Source: Akkermansiaceae bacterium
Lineage (GTDB): Bacteria; Verrucomicrobiota; Verrucomicrobiia; Verrucomicrobiales; Akkermansiaceae
Assembly: GCA_029242935.1 (NCBI GenBank)
Contig: JAQWSX010000107.1
Coordinates: 1-52,563 of the forward strand
Direction of reading: 5' to 3'
Length of the DNA: 52,563 bases
Shown: positions 46,321 to 51,311 of the stretch, in pieces
Layout of the letters: each line of letters opens with the position of its first letter
Position numbering within the stretch: the stretch's first letter is position 1
The notes under the pieces: model-generated
What the model was told of the DNA's origin: nothing
Databases searched by the model: none
Seen by the model: only the letters and a program-made list of their open reading frames with translations
Translations under genes and position numbers: made by a program

Positions 46321-48312
46321 ATGGCAAGTTGGAAAGAAAACCGGCTGCAGGTGGTGCTCCAAGCCTCGAGAGAGGGAATCTGGGACTGGGACCTAGTGAA
46401 GAGTTCCATCTATTATTCTCCGCGGGTGTGTCGATTTATGGGATATCGCAAGAGCGAGATGCCAAACTTTTTTCAAGACCGCGGAGAGCACATGGATAGG
46501 GCCTCGGTAGCTGCGGTGGATGAAGCTCTGCGTCGTGTTTTACAAGAGGGCGAGGATTTGTTTGCGGTAGAGCCTAGGGTGAAAACAAAAAGGGGTGACT
46601 GGAAGTCTTTCCGGGTTCGGGGTACGCCGGTCCGGGATGGGCTCGGGAAGGTGACGCGAATCGCGGGGAGCTTGATCGATATTTCAAAACGCAAGGAGGC
46701 GGAAAGACAGCTGGCTGAGGAGAGACATCTCATTGAGACCCTACTGGATAACATTCCCATGAATGTTTATTTGAAAGATGAGGAGTCGCGCTTTGTGATG
46801 GCGAATTTGCCGACAGCTAGAAAGATGGGCTTGGGTTCAGCCAAGGATTTGATTGGTAAATCGGATGCTGATTTCTTCAGCGATGAACATGCAAGTAACG
46901 CGCGGTTGGTTGAGAAGGAAATTATGGCTTCGGGTGGTGGAGTCGAAGATTTAACGGAGCATGAGAAGTGGAACGATCGCGAAGACACATGGGTTAAGAG
47001 CACGAAGCATGCGTGGATCGGTCATGATGGCCAAGTAAGGGGAACCTTTGGAGTGACCATTGACATTTCCGAGTTGATACGGACCCGTGAGGCTCAGGAG
47101 AAGGTGACCTCGCAACTTAATGCGCAAAATCATTTAATCGAGGAGGAACGAGAAAGGTTGCGCCTCGTCATTGATAGTGTGCCTCTGCATGTTTACTTCA
47201 AGAACCGGGATCATGAATTTGTGATCGCGAACCAGGCGATTGCGGAGTGGTTCGGGTTCAGCTGCCCAGAAGATCTTTATGACAAGTCGGATCGGGATAT
47301 TTTTTCCGAAGAACACTGGAGGAAAACAGAGGCCGATGAGAAACAGATCATGGAGTCGGGTGTGGCAATTGTGGGGGAGATTGAGAAGGAGGTGTGGGGA
47401 AGGAAAAAGGAGACTTGGGTGATGACATCGAAGTATCCTTGGCGTGACAGTGAGGGGGATGTTGTTGGGACTTTTGGGGTCTCAAGCGACATTTCGGATT
47501 TGATGCAGGCACAGTCGGATCTCCGGGAGCTGGCTGCAACCTACGAAAGGAAAAATCGGGAGATGGACGAAGAATTGGAGCTAGCGCGGGAAGTGCAGCA
47601 GGCGCTTTTGCCTGACGAATTTCCGACAATTTTGGGTGGTGGAGCGACCATGGATTTTTGCCGTCTTTATGAACCCGCTCGCCTGTTGACGGGTGAGTTT
47701 TTTGAGGTCCTACCATTGGCACCGGACCGGGTTGGTTTTTTAATGGGTGAGGTTTTTGATAGGGGAGTGCGATCGGCCTTAATCGTTTCGATGTTACGAG
47801 GGTTGATCGAGAAGGAGATTGCTTCGGCCGGAGACGCGGGAGATTTTTTGACGGGGATTAACGTGGGATTTTCTCACTTATTGTTGGACTCGGGGCATGA
47901 GGTTAAAGCGACAGCTTTTTATGGATTGGTGGATTTGACGAAGAGTGAGATTCAGCTTTCGATGGCTGGGCACGTGAATCCGATTGCGGTTTTTGATGAC
48001 GGCGTTCGTCAGCTCGCACCACCGGACCATGCCTGCGGGCCGGCTTTGGGCGTTGCCGAGAATAGCAGTTATGGAACGGTGTCCGCGCCACTGTCGGGCT
48101 TCCGGAGATTAATTTGTTTTACTGAGGGATTCCAGAATACGAGCAATGTCGATGGTAAGGAATTTGGTGTAACGCGGATGCTAGAAGAGGTTGAGCGAGG
48201 CGGTGATTTGGACCGTGTGATGGAGAGACTTGCAGAGGCAGTAAAGGATTTTGGAGGACATCAGAAATTTGAAAATGCAATTTGTTTGTTGGGATGGGAG
48301 ATTACGAGATGA
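46321..48312 (+). CDS. PAS-PAS-PAS PP2C (SpoIIE-type) protein, probably catalytically dead
   Basis: This 663-residue protein has three PAS domains (about 8-125, 140-258, 275-395), each of the later two opening with a phrase like IPMNVYLKDEESRF. A coiled coil (about 400-435) and a SpoIIE/RsbU-type PP2C domain (about 440-662) follow. The metal-binding acidic residues are all changed relative to its neighbour: Glu 459 (GEFFEV), Glu 477 (EVFDRG instead of DVMGHG), Glu 602 (TEG) and Glu 651-Asn 652. Such a set of changes suggests loss of phosphatase activity. Its stop overlaps the ATG of the next gene as ATGA, so the two are made together. Confidence 0.87.
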   Translation: MASWKENRLQVVLQASREGIWDWDLVKSSIYYSPRVCRFMGYRKSEMPNFFQDRGEHMDRASVAAVDEALRRVLQEGEDLFAVEPRVKTKRGDWKSFRVRGTPVRDGLGKVTRIAGSLIDISKRKEAERQLAEERHLIETLLDNIPMNVYLKDEESRFVMANLPTARKMGLGSAKDLIGKSDADFFSDEHASNARLVEKEIMASGGGVEDLTEHEKWNDREDTWVKSTKHAWIGHDGQVRGTFGVTIDISELIRTREAQEKVTSQLNAQNHLIEEERERLRLVIDSVPLHVYFKNRDHEFVIANQAIAEWFGFSCPEDLYDKSDRDIFSEEHWRKTEADEKQIMESGVAIVGEIEKEVWGRKKETWVMTSKYPWRDSEGDVVGTFGVSSDISDLMQAQSDLRELAATYERKNREMDEELELAREVQQALLPDEFPTILGGGATMDFCRLYEPARLLTGEFFEVLPLAPDRVGFLMGEVFDRGVRSALIVSMLRGLIEKEIASAGDAGDFLTGINVGFSHLLLDSGHEVKATAFYGLVDLTKSEIQLSMAGHVNPIAVFDDGVRQLAPPDHACGPALGVAENSSYGTVSAPLSGFRRLICFTEGFQNTSNVDGKEFGVTRMLEEVERGGDLDRVMERLAEAVKDFGGHQKFENAICLLGWEITR

Positions 48313-50312
48313 ATTTGGAAGAGGAGAGGCTTGATTTGGCTCTCAAGGCTTCGAATGAGGGGATTCTAGATTGGGATCTCAAGACGGGAGAAATTTATTA
48401 CTCCAATCGCTTGCTAGGATTTTTGGGTTATGGGCGTTTTGGGGCACCAAACATTTTAAAAGAATCGGAGAAACATGTGCATCCCGAGGATTTTGCACGG
48501 TTTACTCGCAAGCTGGATCGGGTCTTGCATCGAGGCGGGAAGTTGTTTGCAGATGAGGCAAGAATTCGTACGAACTCGGGAGAGTGGAAATGGTTTCGGG
48601 TAAGGGCTTTGCCCTTGCGGGATGACGATGGAACCTTGATGCGATTGGTGGGAAGTTTGATTGATATTTCCAAGCGACGCTTTGCCGAGAAGGCGTTAGC
48701 CGAGGAGCGTAAGATGATCGATTTGATTTTAGATCGGGTGCCGATCAATGTTTATTTTAAGGATAGGGAGTCACGTTTTATGCGGGCAAATCGGTCAACT
48801 GCTCAACGCGTGGGAGCTGGAACGATTGCGAATTTGATCGGGAAAAGGGATCACGATTTCTTTGAAAAGGAGCATGCCGATTTCTCGCGGGCACGAGAGC
48901 TTGAAATTATGGAGGCGGGAATTGGCCAGGAGGAGAAGCTGGAGCATGAGATCTGGGAGGACGGGCACGATTCTTGGAGTTTGGTGACCAAGAAAGTGTG
49001 GCGGGGATTGAACGGGGAAGTACTAGGGACCTTTGGTCTGACTCATGATGTGACCGAGTTGATTGAAACTGAGCGGAACCTCGAGCAGATTGCGGAGAAG
49101 TTGAAGGTGGTTAATCAGGAGATCAGTGAAGAGCGGCATCTTCTTCGTCTGGTTATCGATAATATGCCGGTTTTTGTTTACTTCAAAGATCTGGATTCAA
49201 ACTTCGTTTTGGTTAATCAAAGGATGTCTGATCTTGTGGGAGCTAGATCTCCGAATGAGGCGGTGGGAAAAAATGATAGTCACTTTTTTGGTGAGAAATT
49301 GGTCCGGGAATCGGCCCGGGATGAGCGGGAGATCATGGCTACTGGGAAACCGGTGGTGAAGAAGCTGGAGGAGGTATCCTGGAAGGATGACCATGTTTCT
49401 TGGGCCGTGTCCTCAAAATACCCGTGGTATTTGCCGGACGGCACTTTGCGAGGAATCTTTGGGGTTTCTTCGGACGTCACAAAGTTGGTTGAAACGAAGC
49501 AACAGCTTGAAAAAATCACGAAGATTCTGGGGCGTCAGAATGATGCTCTTGAAGAGCAGTTGGGGCTGGCGCGCGAGATTCAGCAGGCGGCTTTACCCAG
49601 TGTGATCCCGTCTATTGCGTGCCATAAAAATGGGCGTAGGGCGGACTTTCATCATCGTCATCAGCCGGCTTCTCATCTTGCCGGAGACTTTTTTGAGGTG
49701 ATTCCACTGGGTGAAGGAAAGGCGGGATTCTTTGTCTGTGATGTTATGGGGCACGGCGTGCGTTCGGCCCTGATTGTTTCGATGTTGCGTGGTTTACTTG
49801 AGAAGCAGGGAGAGACTTTTGGAGATCAGCCCGGGGCTTTTTTGGCGGGGTTGAATGATGGCTTGTCCCACTTGCTCGAGCGAACTCGTCAATTAATTTT
49901 CGCGACCGCGATCTATGGTTGTGTGGACTTGGAACGTGGCGAGCTGAAGATCGCTTCAGCCGGACATCCGAATCCCATTGTGAGTCGGAATGGAGTGGTT
50001 GAAATTTTAGAATTGGGATCTGAGGCCCAAGGTCCCGGATTGGGAATGGTCCCGGGGTTTGAATTTCCGGAGATGAGTCTTCCTGTTGAATCTTTGGAGG
50101 GAATCTGGGGCTTTACCGATGGTGTCTTTGAGGTTTTGGGTGCAGATGGGCAGGAGTTTGGCGTAGCCAGAATGTGTGAGGCGCTTCAGAGTGAGGATCG
50201 AAGCATGGAAGCGATCGACCGGATCGTGAACGCTGCCATCAATTTTGCAGCTGAAAAGGTTTTTGAGGATGATCTCTGTGTTTTGGGGATCGATTTTGGG
50301 CACCAGACTTGA
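48309..50312 (+). CDS. PAS-PAS-PAS PP2C (SpoIIE/RsbU-type) phosphatase
   Basis: This 667-residue protein is a tandem paralogue of the previous one, with the same three PAS domains, coiled coil and PP2C domain. Its metal site is intact: Asp 460 (GDFFEV), Asp 478 (DVMGHG), Asp 604 (TDG) and Asp 654-Asp 655 (EDDLCVLG). RsbU-type phosphatases dephosphorylate STAS-domain anti-anti-sigma factors in partner-switching stress responses; PAS domains sense small ligands or redox. No STAS, anti-sigma or sigma gene is in the window, so the target lies elsewhere. The ATG at 48309 overlaps the upstream stop; the frame extends back to 48282 but that part overlaps the previous gene. Confidence 0.92.
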   Translation: MNLEEERLDLALKASNEGILDWDLKTGEIYYSNRLLGFLGYGRFGAPNILKESEKHVHPEDFARFTRKLDRVLHRGGKLFADEARIRTNSGEWKWFRVRALPLRDDDGTLMRLVGSLIDISKRRFAEKALAEERKMIDLILDRVPINVYFKDRESRFMRANRSTAQRVGAGTIANLIGKRDHDFFEKEHADFSRARELEIMEAGIGQEEKLEHEIWEDGHDSWSLVTKKVWRGLNGEVLGTFGLTHDVTELIETERNLEQIAEKLKVVNQEISEERHLLRLVIDNMPVFVYFKDLDSNFVLVNQRMSDLVGARSPNEAVGKNDSHFFGEKLVRESARDEREIMATGKPVVKKLEEVSWKDDHVSWAVSSKYPWYLPDGTLRGIFGVSSDVTKLVETKQQLEKITKILGRQNDALEEQLGLAREIQQAALPSVIPSIACHKNGRRADFHHRHQPASHLAGDFFEVIPLGEGKAGFFVCDVMGHGVRSALIVSMLRGLLEKQGETFGDQPGAFLAGLNDGLSHLLERTRQLIFATAIYGCVDLERGELKIASAGHPNPIVSRNGVVEILELGSEAQGPGLGMVPGFEFPEMSLPVESLEGIWGFTDGVFEVLGADGQEFGVARMCEALQSEDRSMEAIDRIVNAAINFAAEKVFEDDLCVLGIDFGHQT

Positions 50313-50345: not shown

Positions 50346-51311
50346 TTGAGCGAGAAAATTGCAATCCTGACTTCCGGCGGAGACGCTGCCGGGATGAATC
50401 CCGCGGTGAAATCGGCCGCTGATTATGCCCGCAAAAAGGGGATGATTCCTTACTTGGTTGAATGGGGGTTGAGAGGCTTGATTGAGGGGTGGATTAAAGA
50501 AGCCACACCTGAGCGTCTTAGTGGTATGCTCTATCGGGGTGGCACTGCGCTTGGTTCCTCGAGATCGAAGCGATTTTTTGAATATGAATTTAGAAAACAA
50601 GCTTTTGATAATTTGCAGAATTTTGGGATTTCGAAGCTCATCATCATTGGTGGAGACGGTTCCTTTAATGCGTTGAACCAATTCTACGTTGATTTCAAGG
50701 TGCCGTTTGCGGGGATCCCAGCTACGATTGACAACGATATTTCGGGGACAGATTACTGCCTAGGGGTCGACACGGCGCTCAATATGATTCGCTCAAGTGT
50801 GGATAGTATTCGTGATACTGCGTCTTCCTTTTCAAGGGCGTTTGTGATCGAGACGATGGGGCGTGATTGTGGGTATCTTGCCATGGTAAGTGCGCTTGCA
50901 AATGGTGCGGAAGTCTGTCTGGTTCCGGAGATTAAGTATGATCTCGATGCGATTGGCGAACGATTACGGCAACAACGCGCGGCCGGAAAACGCTATGTTT
51001 TAGGGATCGTTGCGGAAGGAACCGGTATGGCCGAACCGCTGACACGTTGGATGGGCGACTTTTTGGATATGGATGCCCGTCTTACTGTTTTGGGGCATGT
51101 TCAGCGAGGTGGTTCTCCGACAGTTTATGATCGGATTATGGCCTATAAATTTGCAGTTGCCGCTGTTGATCACCTGCTAGCTGGCGATGCCAACCGGGTC
51201 GTGACTTTCAGGAATGGGCGATTTGGCAGTTCCTCGATCCATCAGATTTCTGACACCAAGCATGAGTGTGAGGCTAGTCTGCTTGATTTGGTTCGCGGAT
51301 TGAGTTGCTAG
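50346..51311 (+). CDS. pfkA: 6-phosphofructokinase
   Basis: This 321-residue kinase phosphorylates fructose 6-phosphate in glycolysis. The motifs are complete: TSGGDAAGMNPAV (phosphate loop), IIGGDGSFNALN, PATIDNDISGTDYCLGVDTA (catalytic Asp in TIDND), ETMGRDCGYLA and LGHVQRGGSPT. GGDGS indicates ATP rather than pyrophosphate as donor, although the residue before TIDND is Ala, where ATP enzymes have Gly and PPi enzymes Lys. The start must be TTG at 50346, as no ATG precedes the phosphate loop. Its TAG stop overlaps that of lpxA within CTAG. Confidence 0.93.
   Translation: MSEKIAILTSGGDAAGMNPAVKSAADYARKKGMIPYLVEWGLRGLIEGWIKEATPERLSGMLYRGGTALGSSRSKRFFEYEFRKQAFDNLQNFGISKLIIIGGDGSFNALNQFYVDFKVPFAGIPATIDNDISGTDYCLGVDTALNMIRSSVDSIRDTASSFSRAFVIETMGRDCGYLAMVSALANGAEVCLVPEIKYDLDAIGERLRQQRAAGKRYVLGIVAEGTGMAEPLTRWMGDFLDMDARLTVLGHVQRGGSPTVYDRIMAYKFAVAAVDHLLAGDANRVVTFRNGRFGSSSIHQISDTKHECEASLLDLVRGLSC

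Follow-up and report, generated by a model that had tools for sequence, protein, structure and literature searches.

What becomes of a phosphatase gene that has lost its metal ligands and still sits, generation after generation, beside an intact twin? The question is raised by a window of 52,563 nucleotides, the whole stretch of DNA analysed here (contig JAQWSX010000107.1, positions 1 to 52,563, of the Akkermansiaceae assembly GCA_029242935.1), which carries on its forward strand two adjacent PAS-PAS-PAS-PP2C genes: gene A (46321..48312; 663 amino acids (aa)), whose metal ligands are replaced and which is a predicted pseudophosphatase, and gene B (48309..50312; 667 aa, ATG at 48309), whose metal site is intact. 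The altered A is kept as carefully as its intact twin, which suggests that it now regulates that twin or a target that the two share.

Coupled PAS-PP2C paralogues, one with a replaced metal site

Both open reading frames encode three PAS_4 stretches and one SpoIIE domain, all above the curated Pfam cut-offs, with a SpoIIE match of E = 9.5e-21 and 75.1 bits in A and E = 3.5e-36 and 125.4 bits in B (cut-off 25 bits). In A, PAS1 covers residues 8-121 (46342..46683), PAS3 residues 285-393 (47173..47499) and the SpoIIE/PP2C domain positions 47722..48264; the SpoIIE/PP2C domain of B lies at 49713..50294. PAS and SpoIIE were the only families matched in A, where no receiver domain was found (Pfam, E up to 0.001). 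The stop codon of A and the start codon of B overlap in an ATGA (48309..48312), from which we infer translational coupling. Open reading frame coordinates, Pfam matches and 43% protein identity between A and B bear out an earlier note on this DNA, which had described two ATGA-overlapping PAS-PAS-PAS-PP2C paralogues.

We aligned the PP2C domain of B with two chains of SpoIIE, 5ucg and 5mqh, and named the alignment columns of B D460, D478, D604, D654 and D655 M1 to M5. The metal Asp residues of B fall on the SpoIIE motifs GD, SDGMG, SDG and EDD; D628, D746 and D795 of SpoIIE are described as putative metal ligands (PMC5468089). B, as the earlier note had stated, retains the metal Asp residues of an active SpoIIE-type PP2C phosphatase, at Asp460 (49686..49688), Asp478 (49740..49742), Asp604 (50118..50120) and Asp654-Asp655 (50268..50273), and A does not: M1 to M3 hold Glu459 (47695..47697), Glu477 (47749..47751) and Glu602 (48124..48126), and DVMGHG has become EVFDRG, both as previously read. 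The further claim that every metal Asp of A is replaced, mostly by Glu, holds for the replacement and for these three positions. It does not extend to the fourth site, which had been read one residue off as Glu-Asn at 651/652: E651 pairs with E653 of B, and the ligand columns contain Asn652-Ala653 (48274..48279).

A single, stepwise loss within the genus

A adjoins B, in constant order, in all 27 genomes of our genus sample. A quick-method tree was built from 63 proteins (27 copies of A, 27 of B and 9 from outside the genus), its branches supported solely by the Shimodaira-Hasegawa-like approximate likelihood ratio test (SH-aLRT). It separates A and B into two clades that branch alike internally, and the duplication is therefore older than the genus. 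Every metal Asp is kept in 8 of the 27 A copies (G001, G002, G005, G006, G008, G009, G012 and G017), which branch early; the altered copies, 19 of 27, form one nested clade (SH-aLRT 99 in the full tree, 90 in a tree of PAS columns only). On the PAS-only tree the difference between altered and intact copies takes one change, M1, M2, M4, M5 and the GHG His take one each, and M3 takes three.

Intermediate states survive within the altered clade. The A copy of G022 keeps M1, M2 and M3 with the C-terminal DD and the GHG His gone, that of G007 keeps M1 and M2, and that of G024 keeps M1 only; beyond these three partly altered copies, Glu stands at both M1 and M2 (16 of 19), in one case (G004) with Asp still at M3. 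All 19 altered copies have lost the GHG His and both C-terminal Asp, and 17/19 no longer have Asp at M3, a site that varies within the clade. This nesting suggests that the His and the C-terminal DD changed first, then M2, then M1, with M3 changing more than once. The pattern is not due to chance, as a whole clade of 16 genomes has Glu at both M1 and M2. The earlier note had named orthologues with intact Asp as the observation that would mark the changes as a local accident; such orthologues do exist, but they branch early and therefore point to an active ancestor and not to a local accident. The loss of the metal site is thus stepwise, single and, as set out below, selected. The birth of a pseudoenzyme is seldom seen stepwise, and here intact, partial and fully altered A copies coexist in 27 related genomes beside the intact twin, so that the order of changes is testable protein by protein.

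The B copies of the genus have Asp at M1 and M2 in 26 of 26 readable cases, at M4 and M5 in 25 of 25 and at M3 in 24 of 25. Separately, one residue is inserted in the alpha1-alpha2 loop of B (about residues 498-508, following EKQGET) in all 16 readable genomes in which A has lost M2, and in none of the 10 others; it is one event on the tree, which we do not take as proof, and possibly reflects co-adaptation.

Selection on the altered domain

Could A simply be decaying? We compared ratios of non-synonymous to synonymous substitution rates (dN/dS) for pairs of PP2C domains (NG86 method), keeping pairs with dS of 0.1-1.2 (116 kept; 644 skipped for dS out of range, saturation or too few sites); the pairs share branches and so are not independent. 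The median was 0.104 for altered A (34 pairs, range 0.064-0.359) and 0.116 for B of the same genomes (16 pairs, 0.080-0.341), with 0.097 for intact A and 0.123 for B of intact-A genomes (6 pairs each). The high values, in A and B alike, come from pairs with G024. Neutral decay of a redundant duplicate would explain why catalytic residues intact in eight orthologues are lost in the others, but is scarcely credible for a domain with dN/dS of about 0.10, two ligand sites with a fixed Glu and A copies that are all, 27 of 27, free of internal stops (one is truncated where its contig ends). Local accident or decay was also rejected on the count of 19/27 altered genomes and the single loss event. The earlier conclusion of selected loss of catalysis, as opposed to random decay, is upheld by these results.

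Glu459 and Glu477 do not change once among the 16 most altered A copies, on a tree with a length of 2.32 changes per site, while M3 and the His column change five times each. The codons of the two Glu do vary (GAA in 3/16 at M1 and 1/16 at M2), a synonymous GAA/GAG turnover. Invariance is not rare by itself, as 94 of the 243 columns in the PP2C domain do not vary in A (15-genome comparison). More telling are the columns that hold no more than three residue types elsewhere: three alone, T457, E459 and E477, are fixed in A to a residue unseen in B, intact A and outside copies, and the last two of these are M1 and M2. The active copies compared share 31 invariant columns, of which the most altered A keep 15 in 16/16, are mixed at 9 and have replaced 7 in 16/16, namely M1, M2, M4, M5, the GHG His, and A458 and F531 of B.

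One could read the invariant, synonymously turning-over Glu pair as a sign of changed metal chemistry, in which Glu459 and Glu477 would hold one metal and A would still hydrolyse, weakly or in a different way; a single metal is retained in PHLPP2 and TAB1, yet both are classed as pseudophosphatases (PMC12002173). Given the replacement of the GHG His and both C-terminal Asp in every altered A, and of M3 in nearly all of them, we consider such an enzyme quite improbable. A combines lost catalytic residues with a protein under selection, as a pseudophosphatase does, and judging from its sequence is very probably a selected and inactive one.

Surfaces kept and relaxed in A

To see which parts of A have been preserved, we counted changes per column in A and B of the same 15 genomes, with region limits for helices and loops from our own mapping. 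Kept in A are alpha0 (0.27 changes per column in A, 0.36 in B), alpha1 (0.29 and 0.41) and PAS1 (0.81 and 1.32); relaxed are beta1-beta2 (1.53 and 0.63), alpha2 (1.65 and 0.47), the alpha2-beta4 loop (2.67 and 1.17) and the TDG strand (2.20 and 1.40). The alpha0 linker segment of A, LAREVQQALLP (47581..47613), is conserved as in B and helical in a low-confidence model, and the switch helix alpha1 is assigned to the VRSALIVSMLRGLIEKE region (47767..47826) by conservation and that model. On sequence conservation, both A and B thus have the alpha0 linker and switch helix alpha1 of the RsbU/RsbP/RssB type. Over alpha1, A and B share an identity of 0.88 in altered genomes versus 0.77 in intact ones; A-B identity is lower in altered genomes for 13 of 17 regions, and alpha2, beta4-beta5 and alpha3/4 rise by 0.01-0.03. 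Recent gene conversion, considered as a source of the alike alpha1 helices, is disfavoured by A-B nucleotide identity of 73-84% there (14 genomes).

In published accounts, alpha1/alpha2 forms the switch and dimer interface, and the switch-loop, flap and alpha3/4 loop are docking loops (PMC12143880, PMC11418112). Retention of alpha0/alpha1 with relaxation of alpha2 and the alpha2/beta4 loop would therefore favour partnership, by dimer or switch, over plain substrate competition; the earlier note had named a heterodimer and competition for one STAS substrate as alternatives. Under such competition A would be a substrate decoy that holds a phosphorylated STAS protein, the proposed substrate of B, without cleaving it, either competing with B or storing the phospho-form. 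A flap region more conserved in A than in B and the 15 fully kept core columns fit a decoy. The phosphate-binding centre of PPM enzymes should, however, largely vanish without metals, and Phe531 of B, which never varies among the compared active copies, has been lost in 16/16 of the most altered A. As the alpha2/beta4 loop relaxed in A along with alpha2 is itself a reported docking loop (PMC11418112), we regard a decoy as unlikely.

A might alternatively act alone, as an RssB-like adaptor in which a PAS-regulated pseudophosphatase homodimer delivers or holds another partner. RssB offers a precedent for a PP2C domain working without catalysis (PMC5468089), and conserved alpha0/alpha1 would suit such a protein; the unbroken adjacency of A and B across the genus, and a gene overlap that argues for a joint product, leave this a rather improbable alternative.

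A candidate STAS target

If B is the active partner, what might it dephosphorylate? Of the STAS matches in the source genome, one is a short protein of 178 aa (G000:C160, L093:14108-14644) and the other lies in a 555 aa frame. The short protein matches the RssC model at 1.2e-7, below the cut-off, and the anti-anti-sigma model likewise weakly and below cut-off. Its GMDSTF motif, with the candidate phospho-acceptor Ser59, is invariant in 5/5 aligned STAS proteins, and the protein has both the small size and the conserved candidate Ser looked for in the STAS member of an RsbU-RsbV-RsbW partner switch. A search of 56 genomes recovered the protein in 49, including 38/38 of those at least 90% complete; within the genus it was found in 21/27 (one copy, in G001, with one internal stop), and the six misses are all at most 87% complete.

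Elsewhere, the STAS gene has another phosphatase beside it. In 21 of the 25 genomes that have an orthologous GAF-PP2C protein (about 490 aa; counted at E at most 1e-80, with GAF and SpoIIE domains in 2/2 tested), its gene is adjacent to the STAS gene (for example, L130:979-2998 and L132:2063-4053). GAF-PP2C was not found in 26 of the 27 genus genomes (G026 alone has one), nor in 12 of the 13 most complete. Outside the genus it was not found in 5/8 genomes with PAS-PP2C versus 0/21 without (Fisher p = 4.7e-4, uncorrected for relatedness), and the four genomes with STAS but without a detected GAF-PP2C all have PAS-PP2C. From this pattern of absence, the PAS-PP2C line may have taken over the orphan RssC-like STAS target.

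A classical RsbW partner switch was considered and rejected, as no short HATPase_c_2 protein was found in the source genome (85.5% complete, which makes the absence provisional). Its sole HATPase_c_2 match is a PAS histidine kinase, and the shortest open frame among the HATPase_c_2 matches listed for the 27 genomes is 279 aa.

A proposed partnership and the points against it

We propose that A is a PAS-bearing pseudophosphatase regulatory partner of B, a reading drawn from the patterns above that we hold tentatively, at somewhat under an even chance. A would have arisen from an active tandem duplicate and lost its metal site along the course described. Through the overlapping genes, A and B would be produced together, and would dimerise most likely via their PAS domains, the helical linker and the alpha0/alpha1 switch element. 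Dimerisation through the linker and switch is reported or modelled for RsbU, RsbP and RssB, and RsbU activation is described as linker-driven dimerisation via the switch (PMC12143880 for RsbU). In the heterodimer, A would bring in three PAS domains of its own as inputs and, through the surface of its alpha1, set the switch of B; the state of that switch would then govern metal binding and activity in B, which alone would do the chemistry, with Ser59 in the GMDSTF of the orphan RssC-like STAS protein as the proposed substrate site.

Several observations weigh against this partnership or parts of it. A conserves its flap region better than B does (1.15 changes per column versus 2.69), and likewise in intact genomes (0.69 versus 1.46), which fits A binding some protein there, possibly substrate. 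From an alpha1/alpha2 interface alone one would not expect alpha2 to relax, and a conserved alpha1 would equally serve an A homodimer. Glu sometimes substitutes for Asp at metal sites, and weak or altered metal binding by A is possible. The intact twin is also not spotless: B of G024 (L049), on a long branch, has Glu at M3 with a short gap just before it, so that this twin may also be changing or the assembly may be in error, and in G023, a metagenome-assembled genome (MAG) 61% complete, B contains two stops within a short stretch that looks garbled (L037:5340-5440), which is either error or real loss. As for the target, no linkage of the STAS gene with the A-B pair was observed, PAS-PP2C and GAF-PP2C coexist in 3 of the 8 outside genomes, the gene-content link is confounded by shared ancestry, and an RsbW-like short kinase is, provisionally, missing from the source genome.

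Locus context and relatives

The junction reads ATGA in 24/27 genomes, TTGA in G011 and GTGA in G022, and the A stop of G024 is TAA; contig ends cut B in G015 and G007, and A in G020. A 6-phosphofructokinase gene (50346..51311, forward strand) starts 33 bases 3' of B and follows B in 24/27 genomes; in G015 and G007 the contig ends, and in G018 there is no match. In 8 genomes from outside the genus, the stretches flanking the PAS-PP2C genes gave no match to it, and a link of the pair to central metabolism is possible. Promoter and terminator scans gave 4 promoter-like sites versus 2.7 expected and 9 terminator-like sites versus 4.1 expected (standard deviation 1.9), 7 of the 9 within the coding sequence of A or B.

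An AlphaFold2 model of A from a 14-row alignment (the window and named-record homologues) had a mean predicted local distance difference test score (pLDDT) of 68.8 and a predicted template modelling score (pTM) of 0.37, with most PP2C-half blocks below a pLDDT of 70. With this low-confidence model, the best 50 of 1199 Foldseek matches look like PAS or PAS-containing entries.

Seven close loci all come from MAGs (four Akkermansiaceae and one each of Verrucomicrobiales, Verrucomicrobiia and Verrucomicrobiota). PAS-PP2C relatives outside the genus (E of 3e-50 or better) occur in 8 of 31 genomes searched, as 9 proteins with the metal site intact in 9/9. One of these genomes, G034, has its own tandem pair of PAS-PP2C type (L062, G034:C2:959931-963096), both metal sites intact. 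Frames of about 250 aa with A-like PAS matches are numerous across the genus, and short regulators at L094:1362-2108 and L093:1449-2258 join a PAS_4 of the A/B kind to an AraC-type helix-turn-helix. A further protein of about 400 aa (L096:1720-2940, G000:C147) has a C-terminal PP2C_2 and an N-terminal part without a Pfam match, and several genus genomes contain frames of similar length.

Comparison with known systems

RsbU and RsbP of Bacillus subtilis resemble A and B in their N-terminal sensor (PAS in RsbP), helical linker and SpoIIE-type PP2C domain, but are described as dimers of one active phosphatase (PMC12143880, PMC11418112), whereas here an overlapping gene encodes a paralogue with a replaced metal site. 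They also differ from the source genome in their RsbW-like kinase, of which none was found there. RssB and RssC offer a second likeness, in that the Pseudomonas RssB model picks up B (E 3.3e-11, below cut-off) and the RssC model the STAS protein. RssB itself is reported to lack phosphatase activity in Escherichia coli and to be active in Pseudomonas aeruginosa, a non-catalytic use of the PP2C fold (PMC5468089). Unlike RssB, A has three PAS domains, no detected receiver domain, an intact twin and, by our own reading of the alignment, a retained C-terminal strand region. The genus offers a natural experiment for a published proposal, namely that selection can maintain the switch of a PP2C domain irrespective of its catalytic function (PMC5468089).

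Pseudophosphatases of the PP2C fold are already known. PHLPP2 and TAB1 are described as animal PPM pseudophosphatases, and PHLPP has been traced to an active ancestor (PMC12002173). They share with A the PPM fold and an absence of activity, predicted in the case of A, and unlike A are eukaryotic. To our knowledge, neither is co-encoded with an active paralogue. Among the matches listed by our full-text literature searches, no bacterial tandem pair of an active and a dead SpoIIE-type protein was found.

A further parallel comes from an unrelated enzyme. In Trypanosoma brucei, the dead paralogue prozyme is reported to activate its AdoMetDC twin by heterodimerisation (PMC5201418); that system is eukaryotic and its activation is shown by structure, whereas for A and B activation is only proposed. 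In its most extended form, which we find doubtful as a whole, our proposal would make A and B a prozyme-like obligate heterodimer, in which a dead PAS-sensing PP2C protomer, its former metal sites fixed by Glu, allosterically activates its twin via the shared switch helix, relatives retain active-active and intermediate states, and the pair took its RssC-like STAS target from the missing GAF-PP2C.

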